64,000 nt of DNA from contig NZ_CP129235.1 of the NCBI RefSeq assembly GCF_030413635.1, forward strand, positions 3,472,001-3,536,000, in the 5' to 3' direction. Position 1 is the first letter of the stretch. Each line of letters starts with the position of its first letter. Origin of the DNA: Planococcus shenhongbingii. Lineage in GTDB: Bacteria > Bacillota > Bacilli > Bacillales_A > Planococcaceae. Below the pieces are notes generated by a model that saw nothing but the letters and a program-made list of their open reading frames with translations, ran no database searches and was not told the origin of the DNA. Shown in pieces: positions 48,672 through 51,810 of the stretch. Both the position numbers and the translations under genes were made by a program.

Positions 48672-49011
48672 ATGGGCAGGAGTTATTCTCATTTTACTCG
48701 GCTCCATTATGGCAGTTATCAGTGCTTTCGGTATCCTTCGCTTGCCTGATGTCTATACGCGTTCACATGCCGCCACTAAAAGTTCGACGCTCGCGGTTCT
48801 ATTATCCTTAAGCGGCACTTTCATCTATTTTTGGGCTACGGAAAACTTTATCAGCGTCCGGCTTTTCCTTGGAATCTCTTTCGTGTTCTTAACAGCGCCT
48901 GTTTCAGGCCATTTGATCACACGAGCCGCTTACCGCTCTAATGTAAAGCTTGCTGATATTTCTACCGAAGATGCATTAAAAGAGGTTATTCATAAAAAAG
49001 AGCAAGATTAA
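48649..49011 (+). CDS. mrpG: Mrp antiporter subunit G
   Basis: 120 residues, three membrane helices. The MrpG segments GSIMAVISAFGILRLPDVYTRSHAATKSSTLAVLL and FLTAPVSGHLITRAAYRS are intact. TTG 48649 is the start, with AAAGGGGGG 6-7 bases upstream; a longer frame upstream lies inside mrpF. Last gene of the operon, followed by a strong terminator. Confidence 0.93.
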   Translation: MSIREIIEWAGVILILLGSIMAVISAFGILRLPDVYTRSHAATKSSTLAVLLSLSGTFIYFWATENFISVRLFLGISFVFLTAPVSGHLITRAAYRSNVKLADISTEDALKEVIHKKEQD

Positions 49012-49013
49012 TC

Positions 49014-49057
49014 AAAAGGTGACAGAAAATTATTTAAATTTTCTGTCACCTTTTTTA
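49014..49057 (+). terminator. Terminator of the mrp operon
   Basis: AAAAGGTGACAGAAAATT pairs with AATTTTCTGTCACCTTTT and a T run follows; a perfect stem of 18 bp. Confidence 0.9.
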
Positions 49058-49122
49058 TTGTCAGGTTTATGTTAAAAATGCAAAGGGAATAGCAGGAAAA
49101 AAGCGGTTGAAGGAGTTTGGAG

Positions 49123-49818
49123 ATGGAAAACATCAAAGATACTTTCAAAGAAGTTGCCGCTGCTATCTTGCCTGTTACAATCGTAGTCATTATCCTCCAG
49201 GTGACGTTGATGCGCCTTCCCCTTGAAGCCCTGCTCCAGTTTCTAGTCGGCGTTGCTTTTGTCAGCATTGGATTTTTCCTGTTTCTTTTGGGAGTAACCG
49301 CAGGGCTGTTACCGGTTGGCGAATTGATCGGCAAACGGCTGCCCCAGACCAAAAAATCCTGGCTGATCATCGGAACCGGATTCCTTCTCGGTTTGGCGGT
49401 AACAATAGCGGAACCGGATGTCCGGGTGCTCGCCAAACAGATTGACCAAGTTTCCGGCGGAGAAATCAGCTCGGGCATACTGGTAATGGCCGTCGCTCTT
49501 GGATTAGCCATTTTCGTTGCCGCCGCAATGGTCCGTACAATCTTCAGTATTCCCATCCACTATATGCTGATTGGCGGCTATGCATTGGTCTTCATCTTAT
49601 CCATATTTGTCCCCGAAGATTTTGTATCGATTTCTTTTGATGCCGGAGGCGTTACTACAGGTCCAATGGCTGTACCTTTCATATTGGCTCTTGGCGTCGG
49701 GGTGGCTTCCGTGCTGCGTTCCCCAACCGCTGATTCCAGTGAAGGTTTCGGTTTAATCGGCCTTGCTTCTATTGGCCCCATCCTGGCCATTATGCTTTTA
49801 GGGGTGTTGTTCCAATGA
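49123..49818 (+). CDS. DUF1538 membrane protein, first copy
   Basis: 231 residues, about six membrane helices. The family core has the pair AEPDVRVLAKQIDQVSGG (about 92-109) and FDAGGVTTGPMAVPFILA (about 171-188), repeated almost unchanged in the next gene. The GGV-TTGPM loop looks like a re-entrant ion- or substrate-binding element. ATG 49123 lies 7 bases after GAAGGAG. First gene of an operon with a second DUF1538 protein and a double-PII protein; it likely forms a transporter or channel with the second copy. Confidence 0.8.
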   Translation: MENIKDTFKEVAAAILPVTIVVIILQVTLMRLPLEALLQFLVGVAFVSIGFFLFLLGVTAGLLPVGELIGKRLPQTKKSWLIIGTGFLLGLAVTIAEPDVRVLAKQIDQVSGGEISSGILVMAVALGLAIFVAAAMVRTIFSIPIHYMLIGGYALVFILSIFVPEDFVSISFDAGGVTTGPMAVPFILALGVGVASVLRSPTADSSEGFGLIGLASIGPILAIMLLGVLFQ

Positions 49819-50558
49819 ACATTCATGTGTTTGACGGTTTTTTGGATATCCTCCGCGAAGTCGGTGTTGCGCTCATCCCCTTGTTTATCTTCTTTGCTTT
49901 GTTCCAGGTTTTCATGCTTAAATTGCCCAGGCAACGGGTATTTCAAATACTACTTGGCTTTGTTTTAACATTTTTAGGATTGGCTTTTTTTCTTCAAGGA
50001 GTCCATGTCGGTTTTTTTCCAATCGGGCAAATGATGGGAGAAACGTTTGGGGAAATGTCTTTTCCATGGATCATCATCCCGATCGGTTTTGCACTTGGGT
50101 TTGTCGCCACTTTTGCGGAACCTGCCGTCAGCATTATGATTGACGAAGTGGACCGTGTGACAGGTGGTTATATTTCTGCAAAATTAATGCTGTACACCGT
50201 CTCCACAGGTGTGGGAATTTCGGTGGCGTTATCCATGTTCCGGATCCTTTTCGGGATTTCGCTTTGGTACTTCATCATCCCTGGTTATTTGCTTGCCTTT
50301 ATTTTGACCTTTTATTCGAGAGCCATCTTTATTGCTATAGCGTTCGATTCGGGAGGCGTTTCTACAGGCCCGATGACTGTAACTTTCATTTCCGCAATGG
50401 CTGTCGGGGTAGCCTCTGCTACAGCAGGACGTGACCCGCTGGCTGACGGTTTTGGCCTTATCGCATTAGTAGCACTGACTCCTATTCTCGCAGTGCTTAT
50501 ACTGGGGCTGATTTTCACAAGAAAAGGTGGGGCTGAAAACGATGAATCTGAATCATAG
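49815..50558 (+). CDS. DUF1538 membrane protein, second copy
   Basis: 247 residues, about six to seven membrane helices, paralogous to the preceding gene. The AEPAVSIMIDEVDRVTGG and FDSGGVSTGPMTVTFISAM blocks match the first copy position for position. Genes overlap by 4 bases, so the two are translated together and probably assemble as a heterodimer. The C-terminal tail is acidic and cytosolic. The family has no known substrate. Confidence 0.8.
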   Translation: MNIHVFDGFLDILREVGVALIPLFIFFALFQVFMLKLPRQRVFQILLGFVLTFLGLAFFLQGVHVGFFPIGQMMGETFGEMSFPWIIIPIGFALGFVATFAEPAVSIMIDEVDRVTGGYISAKLMLYTVSTGVGISVALSMFRILFGISLWYFIIPGYLLAFILTFYSRAIFIAIAFDSGGVSTGPMTVTFISAMAVGVASATAGRDPLADGFGLIALVALTPILAVLILGLIFTRKGGAENDESES

Positions 50559-51243
50559 ATTAATGATAGCCATTGTAAAACGCGGTCATTCGAGAGCGGT
50601 CATCGCGGAAGCTAAAAAAGCGGGGGCGGATGGTGCCACGATTCTTTATGCGGAAGGAATTGGCCGCAACGAGAAACCGACTTTTTTCGGCTTGCCCGCT
50701 ACGCATGAAAAAGATGTCGTGCTCATTGCCATTGACGGCAGTCTTGAAGATGCCGTCGCTGACGCTGTCTCCCGGGCTGGAAAATTAGGAATTCCAGGTC
50801 ATGGCCTTGGATTCACAGTCCATTTGAGTAAACTGCTAGGTGTTCGGCATCTATCCAATCGGATAAATTACGTTAAACCCAAGAAAGGGGAACGAGCTGT
50901 GAAACCGATCTCCGAACAATTCCAATTGATTGTTATTATTGTGAACAGCGGCGATTCAGAGAAAGTGGTCGCGGCCGCAGCAAAAGCTGGAGCAGAAGGC
51001 GGCACTATCCTGACCGGCAGAGGCACGGGGGTCAATGAACAGAAGAAGTTTATGAATTTCACGATTGATCCGGAGAAAGATATTGTTCTGACCCTAGTTC
51101 CTGAAAGCTATACGGATGCCGTTATCCAAAGCATTGAAGATGCCATCGACCTTTACGCTCCCGGCAGAGGCATCGCTTTTTTGATTGATGTGGAAAAAGT
51201 ATTCGGCGTCAACCATTCTTCTTTGAATCGGCATAATACGTAA
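50542..51243 (+). CDS. Tandem PII-like signalling protein
   Basis: 233 residues with two PII (GlnB-like) domains, about 5-110 and 125-230. Each has the AxxxGAxGATIL/GGTIL beta-alpha element, a short loop in place of the T-loop (AEGIGRNEKPTFFG and GRGTGVNEQKKFMN), an EKD-I/VLT strand and the GHGLGFTVHL / GRGIAFLIDV C-terminal pattern. PII proteins bind ATP or ADP and 2-oxoglutarate and gate transporters such as AmtB. ATG 50542 overlaps the end of the second DUF1538 gene by 17 bases. The T-loop Tyr used for uridylylation is absent. Confidence 0.82.
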   Translation: MNLNHRLMIAIVKRGHSRAVIAEAKKAGADGATILYAEGIGRNEKPTFFGLPATHEKDVVLIAIDGSLEDAVADAVSRAGKLGIPGHGLGFTVHLSKLLGVRHLSNRINYVKPKKGERAVKPISEQFQLIVIIVNSGDSEKVVAAAAKAGAEGGTILTGRGTGVNEQKKFMNFTIDPEKDIVLTLVPESYTDAVIQSIEDAIDLYAPGRGIAFLIDVEKVFGVNHSSLNRHNT

Positions 51244-51280
51244 AAGAAGTGCTGTCGAGAAACTCTTATTTTCTTTTTTC

Positions 51281-51413
51281 ATTTCGCTCCAGGGCGGACG
51301 CTTTTCGCGGGGGGGCGGCCTGAGCCTCCTCGCTCGCTGGCGCTCCCTGCGGGGTCTCAGGACTCGCCCTATTCCCGCAGAAGTCGCCGCCTTCCGCTGC
51401 ATTCAACTTTGTT
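51281..51413 (-). repeat. GC-rich dispersed repeat, minus orientation
   Basis: On the minus strand it shows the same CTGAGACCCCGCAGGGAGCG and GCGAGGAGGCTCAGGCCGCC blocks as the element at 2376-2612, so it is a diverged member of that family. Confidence 0.7.
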
Positions 51414-51495
51414 TTATCACCTTTTGTGATTCTCTAAAACCGGTGATTGTTTCAGAAAGCTCTCTATTCTTTGTTCTCGCTCTCCAGATATGGAG

Positions 51496-51600
51496 CCAAC
51501 CAGCGGAGACGCCTGCGGGAAAGCGAGACAGCCGAGACCCTGCAGGAGCGTAAGCGACGAAGCGGCTTGGCGCTCGCCCGCGGCAAGCGCAGCTGGTTGG
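51496..51600 (+). repeat. GC-rich dispersed repeat, plus orientation
   Basis: Terminal inverted repeats CCAACCAGC (51496-51504) and GCTGGTTGG (51592-51600) enclose GAGACCCTGCAGGAGCG and other blocks shared with the 2376-2612 element. It lies 80 bp from the oppositely oriented copy. Confidence 0.7.
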
Positions 51601-51810
51601 CGGAATATCGGTTAAGGGATGATCACCAATACAAGTTTTATCTTTCTCAAAAAGCTGAAGAAGTGCTGAAATCTTTCAATTCCAGCCCTTCTTTTATTTC
51701 TGTTTCCGTGAATGCAAAAATTTTCTTTATTTATTAAGGGAACGGATGAATGAGCTAACGCATTTCAAGAAAATAATATATTTCGAAATGCCTTGAAATT
51801 CTAGACTATA

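Follow-up and report, generated by a model that had tools for sequence, protein, structure and literature searches.

We studied an operon at positions 49,123 to 51,243 of a 64,000-nucleotide stretch of the Planococcus shenhongbingii genome (NZ_CP129235.1, positions 3,472,001 to 3,536,000; "the window" denotes this whole stretch). It encodes two DUF1538 membrane proteins and a protein of two fused PII domains, and our main finding is that DUF1538 transporters have a near-obligate PII partner, as shown by co-occurrence statistics. We consider it probable (roughly 0.7) that the two membrane proteins form an antiporter of two inverted seven-helix subunits that is gated by the cytoplasmic PII protein. 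Antiport by a DUF1538 pair, UmpAB, was already known; the PII partnership and an opposite charge bias of the subunits are added here. Our data suggest that a PII-controlled antiporter, apparently not described before, is widespread; its family is rarely found without its own PII partner.

The original prediction, made from the sequence alone, had proposed a gated transporter with its own sensor. Its dedicated PII and its half-transporters were supported, while a family without substrate, a channel, gating by 2-oxoglutarate or by canonical adenosine triphosphate (ATP) binding, and Mrp as a general context were not.

Co-occurrence of DUF1538 and PII

The main sample comprises 299 genomes drawn evenly from the window's phylum, its own genome included; DUF1538 is present in 101 of them. 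The genome-wide reciprocal test used PII profile A2, a 17-row alignment whose rows also come from DUF1538 neighbours. At E<1e-22, this PII subtype is found in 100/101 DUF1538 genomes and in 0/198 others (Fisher p about 4e-80, kinship ignored). The weakest match in a DUF1538 genome has an E-value of 1.3e-26, while the best in a genome lacking DUF1538 (G077) is a truncated PII at 9.2e-20. Within the lone DUF1538 genome without the subtype (G084), DUF1538 itself is broken by stops. The proposed dedicated PII partner is supported, and PII-lacking DUF1538 operons do not dominate.

For adjacency counts, the PII profile was iterated on matches from fetched loci, i.e., the model is family-trained, and a PII counts as adjacent if it lies in the stretch downstream of DUF1538 within the fetched locus. 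PII lies behind DUF1538 in 96/101 genomes of the window's phylum; the five other cases are three contig edges, the G084 pseudogene, and G246, which has DUF1538 and a double PII of the DUF1538 subtype on separate contigs. Three further phylum samples are named after the organism of their centre genome. The Pseudodesulfovibrio-centred sample (Desulfobacterota) has DUF1538 in 17/297 genomes, with adjacent PII in 15/17; of the two others, one has its gene truncated by the end of a contig and one has a DUF1538 fragment. Around Methanoculleus, 30/196 genomes are above the DUF1538 cut-off (the 31st is below), 29/30 with adjacent PII; in the remaining genome PII lies at a distance of 2.7 kb, beyond two frames, and one of these resembles a TnpB transposase. 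The Balneolales-centred sample has DUF1538 in 7/198 genomes and adjacent PII in 7/7. Summed over the four samples, archaea included, PII is adjacent in 147/155 DUF1538 genomes.

PII is also present in 76/80 loci of the named set, i.e., the best 80 named DUF1538 loci. Among the exceptions, L055 ends at a contig edge, and the subtype was also not found across its genome assembly. The other three (L047 and L048 of Sutcliffiella, L066 of Metabacillus) were found to lack the subtype genome-wide; they group in a single clade (FastTree support 94). In the loci closest to Halomonas UmpA (L237-L240; 332 to 365 bits), PII is encoded directly behind umpB; thus, judging by these loci, the closest relatives of the assayed antiporter also have the PII partner. 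Nine plasmid records have a match, and the two examined are both alphaproteobacterial. The Methylocystis plasmid carries a DUF1538 pair with PII; on the Chelativorans plasmid, PII follows an intact second DUF1538 gene, while the first is annotated as a 273-bp piece.

An alternative is that PII is a co-transcribed sensor for another target, an enzyme or regulator, such that the linkage reflects shared regulation. PII proteins also have soluble targets (PMC11617674, seen in part), and the separate contigs of G246 fit this explanation. Nevertheless, we regard it as very improbable, given the adjacency counts in bacteria and archaea, the overlapping genes, the coinciding losses and the precedent of AmtB-GlnK and SbtA-SbtB, where an operon-linked PII binds its transporter (PMC8352866). 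No other neighbour cluster approaches PII in frequency around the 80 named loci; next are antisense frames (assigned by position and strand), followed by an ABC-type ATPase family (13 loci).

As side observations, two tandem pair-plus-PII operons were seen in one genome at L144 and L152 (G165, G131), and the double PII of G246 (L320:2895-3614) is divergent from an unrelated transporter-like gene.

Operon organization and relation to UmpAB

The operon consists of three tightly overlapping forward-strand genes, two for DUF1538 proteins followed by one for the double PII. Its features are:

49110..49115, + strand: AAGGAG Shine-Dalgarno of the first gene (umpA-like), read from the sequence
49123..49818, + strand: DUF1538 gene A (umpA-like), 231 residues, ATG start; open reading frame and Pfam match; charge bias predicts N-in, C-out
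49408..49416, + strand: AEP motif of gene A (Ala96-Glu97-Pro98), from the sequence; helix break in a modelled fused relative
49636..49668, + strand: FDAGGVTTGPM motif of gene A (Asp173), from the sequence; second broken helix in the fused-relative model
49815..50558, + strand: DUF1538 gene B (umpB-like), 247 residues; open reading frame and Pfam match; charge bias predicts N-out, C-in
50115..50123, + strand: AEP motif of gene B (Ala101-Glu102-Pro103), from the sequence
50343..50375, + strand: FDSGGVSTGPM motif of gene B (Asp178), from the sequence
50542..51243, + strand: double-PII gene, 233 residues; open reading frame and Pfam match; 17-bp overlap with gene B
50554..50838, + strand: PII domain N, residues 5-99; EGIGRNE where the loop motif RGTGxxE is expected
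50917..51207, + strand: PII domain C, residues 126-222; loop motif GRGTGVNE, then PEKD

The ATG was chosen as start of gene A because the TTG of the open reading frame list is too near the AAGGAG. Genes A and B overlap by 4 bp (ATGA). Both exceed the curated cut-off of 22.6 bits for Pfam DUF1538 (PF07556), gene A with 244.9 bits (E 6.7e-73) and gene B with 256.3 bits (E 2.3e-76). The double-PII protein belongs to the PII superfamily by its PII fold and by an above-cut-off match to PF00543 (E 2e-15, two stretches). The family assignments of the operon proteins are shown by homology. Coordinates and E-values agree with the overlapping DUF1538 pair and double PII described in the original prediction, and its shared motifs, AEPxV and FDxGGV(T/S)TGPM, are common to both DUF1538 proteins. 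The UmpA-like and UmpB-like proteins are identical in 94/227 aligned columns, and the two PII halves in 44/105. The canonical PII of this genome is encoded elsewhere; aligned with it, each half has 23 identical residues. The nearest named proteins to the operon products are from Planococcus.

The statement that DUF1538 has no assigned substrate is outdated. In 2017, the DUF1538 pair UmpAB of Halomonas zhaodongensis was reported to be a pH-dependent Na+(Li+,K+)/H+ antiporter that rescues E. coli KNabc under salt and alkali, with UmpA and UmpB forming a hetero-dimer by co-immunoprecipitation (PMC5484666, seen in part). UmpAB also served as a control in PMC5996927, and cable-bacteria papers report UmpAB homologues, one at 56% identity; the parts of these papers seen leave PII unmentioned. 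Word searches of the open-licence literature naming DUF1538 (preprints and most subscription papers are outside this scope) found no mention of a PII protein. The sole "PII" string in PMC7221264 is part of a sequence motif, and the text of PMC5484666 on UmpAB has zero occurrences of PII, P-II, topology, antiparallel or inverted.

The corresponding NCBIfam models (NF041627/NF041628; cut-offs 490/500 bits) carry the family name Na,Li,K/H+ antiporter subunits UmpA/UmpB. The window proteins score 106.7 to 134.3 bits against these models, where gene A reaches 116.2 at best (UmpA model) and gene B 112.8 (UmpB model) and 134.3 (UmpA model). Since these scores are far under the equivalog cut-offs, we file both as DUF1538 family members and not as UmpAB equivalogs. 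Like the window pair, Halomonas UmpAB is encoded by two overlapping homologous DUF1538 genes; it has seven predicted helices per subunit (PMC5484666), as we also propose for the window pair. Its nearest sampled relatives (L237-L240) also carry AEP and (F/Y)DxGGVTT motifs.

Predicted opposite orientation of the subunits

DUF1538 exists as solo, paired and fused genes. A structure model of the natural fused protein L068 (490 residues; predicted local distance difference test score 90, predicted template modelling score 0.88) has seven helices per half and no linker helix. Given the odd number of crossing helices and the plain linker, the halves would therefore face opposite ways. Each half has two broken helices, one interrupted at AEP and the other inside FDxGGVTTGP. 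A fold comparison of DUF1538 found no trusted match to NCX or other transporter folds.

We computed the lysine plus arginine (K+R) bias as even minus odd loops, following the positive-inside rule. Fused genes of more than 600 residues were excluded, as were loci whose DUF1538 lies at an edge, and only exact duplicates were removed. The mean bias is +3.9 for UmpA and -6.3 for UmpB, and +7.0 and -7.3 for the fused halves. The expected opposite signs are found in 129/131 pairs and 76/77 fused proteins; since the sequences are related, these counts are not independent trials. Among the 70 possible balanced loop patterns, the alternating one ranks first, a hydrophobic 19-residue stretch occurs in 3/77 fused-protein linkers, and the signs of the mean bias for paired and fused halves are unchanged with model-derived loops. 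A plain hydropathy scan gives seven peaks in most sequences and eight in a minority; solos show seven or eight equally often. The opposite charge bias is shown by statistics, and UmpA/UmpB are predicted to be an antiparallel, dual-topology-type transporter. The idea of half-transporters is thereby sharpened.

For solo genes (n=13, excluding the broken pair L118), the bias ranges from -3 to +2 with hand-set loops, whereas model-derived loops give a mean of +2.15. With the two loop definitions at odds, dual topology of the solos is no more than likely. The dual-topology families EmrE, YnfA, DUF606, YdgE/YdgF and YdgQ/YdgL likewise occur as solo, paired and fused genes; their pairs have opposite K+R bias, as in DUF1538, and the solos of these described families are near zero (PMC3962082, seen in part). 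In contrast to these five proposed dual-topology proteins, which are small with four helices, DUF1538 has seven helices per unit.

PII domains and their putative ligand

DUF1538-linked PII proteins have one, two or apparently three domains per chain. Residue counts left out 24 PII frames lying more than 300 bases from any DUF1538 frame; where two PII genes are neighbours, it was mostly the second that dropped out in this way. Tyr51, Gln39, Lys90 and Arg101, which serve modification and ATP/2-oxoglutarate binding in canonical GlnB/GlnK, are each present in 0/321 domains of the subtype. Gating by ATP or 2-oxoglutarate in the manner of GlnK is therefore not supported, and the subtype falls outside canonical GlnB/GlnK; the original prediction had suggested a nucleotide- or 2-oxoglutarate-gated channel. 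The missing uridylylation tyrosine was correctly recognized: the window protein carries just four tyrosines, at 36, 110, 190 and 205. Position 51 is not Tyr in either domain, and Tyr36 sits just before the N-domain loop. It has no Cys and thus no SbtB motif CGPxGC.

We place an adenine nucleotide as PII ligand at about even odds. That the domains instead sense the transported ion, pH, another ligand or cyclic di-adenosine monophosphate (c-di-AMP) is a real possibility, if one below an even chance. Such a ligand would accord with the absence of Gln39 and of the canonical phosphate ligands Lys90 and Arg101, with an Arg103 that is not conserved (15/96 N and 13/112 C domains), and with the T-loop motif RGxGxx(D/E), found in 62/82 single, 85/118 C and 3/121 N domains. 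On the other hand, Gly27, Thr29, Lys58 and the B-loop glycines are largely retained, Arg103 is present in some domains, including the window's N domain, and the nearest folds are nucleotide-binding PII proteins, with CPII bound to adenosine monophosphate (AMP) and SbtB also listed. Against c-di-AMP stands that its receptor PstA belongs to another family.

Three PII-like domains in one chain are seemingly present at L318:2247-3386, L263:328-1434, L264:290-1432 and L266:1743-3122, adjoining DUF1538 proteins of 626 to 713 residues. Three profile matches are displayed for L318 only; the others were judged by length and layout, and Pfam is weaker. As part of a domain-multiplication reading, such a chain would be a covalent pseudo-trimer. 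We also considered the coupling of gene fusion and PII doubling as proof of stoichiometry (solo with single domain 11/11, fused with two domains 39/40; named set fused 33/33). The tree holds just 3 independent pairs (sign test p 1), so this link is not used as evidence; several edge or long genes are wrongly labelled solo in that analysis.

Two small archaeal genomes (L277:2522-3301, L278:2522-3301) have a solo DUF1538 gene and a single PII, then a further gene that looks nicotinamide adenine dinucleotide (NAD) synthetase-like. PII control of NAD synthetase is the subject of PMC7196632 (seen in part).

Proposed mechanism and related systems

For the Planococcus proteins, we infer antiport, PII docking, gating and ligand as follows. 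UmpA and UmpB would be homologous seven-helix subunits that, inserted in opposite directions, assemble into a single antiparallel transporter with pseudo-symmetry. The acidic residues of AEP and FDxGGV, at or beside the two helix breaks per subunit, probably provide the cation/proton site. The double PII may dock on a cytoplasmic surface to which UmpA contributes its even loops, and UmpB its odd loops and C-terminal tail. It would lower or release antiport in response to a small ligand in the inter-domain cleft, the likeliest candidate being an adenine nucleotide that differs from canonical Mg-ATP. The gating is modelled on GlnK at AmtB and SbtB at SbtA (PMC8352866). We consider PII regulatory and not structural because the Halomonas clone was active in E. 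coli with no PII frame described in the part of PMC5484666 seen, and because one clade lost PII. A docking site could not be derived from the three PII-less lineages: no UmpB position and only one conservative UmpA change (Leu55 to Phe) is common to all three, and this approach was rejected.

SbtA-SbtB is alike in that a secondary transporter whose helices are discontinuous has, at its cytoplasmic face, a PII-type protein from the same operon (PMC8352866). However, SbtA is one 10-helix chain of a different family, and SbtB has one PII domain, whose T-loop is extended and which carries CGPxGC in some homologues; the window protein combines two domains with a shortened T-loop and lacks Cys. In AmtB-GlnK, a gene-linked PII blocks transport from the cytoplasm (PMC3198391, seen in part). 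Here, the operon has no Amt, and its PII differs from GlnK in lacking Tyr51, the long T-loop and several ATP/2-oxoglutarate ligands.

A broader reading, for which we see just short of an even chance, is that DUF1538 proteins are widespread antiparallel two-subunit antiporters, with solos inserted both ways, that have their own non-nitrogen-sensing, domain-multiplying PII subfamily. If true, bacteria and archaea would couple cation/proton homeostasis to their energy or nucleotide state. PII proteins rank among the best-studied signalling proteins, and their well-known operon-linked transporter partners are ammonium and bicarbonate transporters (PMC8352866). A family-wide link to cation/proton antiporters would be a third kind of transporter partnership, found in 101/299 genomes of the phylum and in archaea, and the pairing offers a direct test of what a PII subtype senses. 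DUF1538 with its solo, paired and fused seven-helix units would be a clean new case for antiparallel transporter evolution, the solos being dual-topology proteins larger than the four-helix candidates of PMC3962082.

Substrate and genomic neighbourhood

The upstream flank of the operon holds one further feature:

49014..49054, + strand: probable terminator of the upstream Mrp operon, between mrpG and the operon; 18-pair stem, then T-run

Over the whole scan, 4 terminator-like sites compare to 3.9 in shuffles, i.e., no excess, and the promoter scan is near background (5 vs. 3.3). Mrp and its terminator are directly upstream at this locus, as had been noted, but this does not hold as a general context. 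Among the 16 genus genomes with DUF1538, mrpG is at most 1.5 kb upstream in 8 (own included), and the Mrp cluster is absent from the 25 most frequent neighbour clusters around the 80 named loci. We thus rejected Mrp as functional context.

These data also bear on the substrate. It is unlikely, in our view, that the PII-controlled transporter moves something else (ammonium, another ion or a small metabolite) and that cation/proton exchange is Halomonas-specific or a side activity. In favour of this alternative, a single DUF1538 member was assayed in the literature examined (PMC5484666), the window proteins are distant from its branch, and the 80 named holders include numerous Clostridia, genomes from gut or rumen, and methanogens, as opposed to halophiles. 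Against this, the Glu of AEP and the Asp of FDxGGV show no variation in alignment A1 and little or none in either half of alignment A4, and close relatives include the halophile/alkaliphile genera Alkalihalophilus, Virgibacillus, Evansella and Marinococcus. Furthermore, the operon lies behind Mrp in half of the genus genomes, and in a machine-learning study of 2026 DUF1538 is one of the features associated with growth pH (PMC13255231, seen in part).

Some minor observations concern the surroundings. The region 51280-51640, between the PII gene and a catalase-like gene, is rich in guanine and cytosine and seems, by eye, to contain repeated, partly inverted dispersed-repeat segments. Five of the 80 named loci (L059, L074, L076, L090, L110) have a KefB-like (CPA2) antiporter gene near the operon. 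Finally, a long antisense frame (49008-49556, - strand) covers gene A, with akin frames recurring in relatives; it looks like a shadow of membrane-protein codons.
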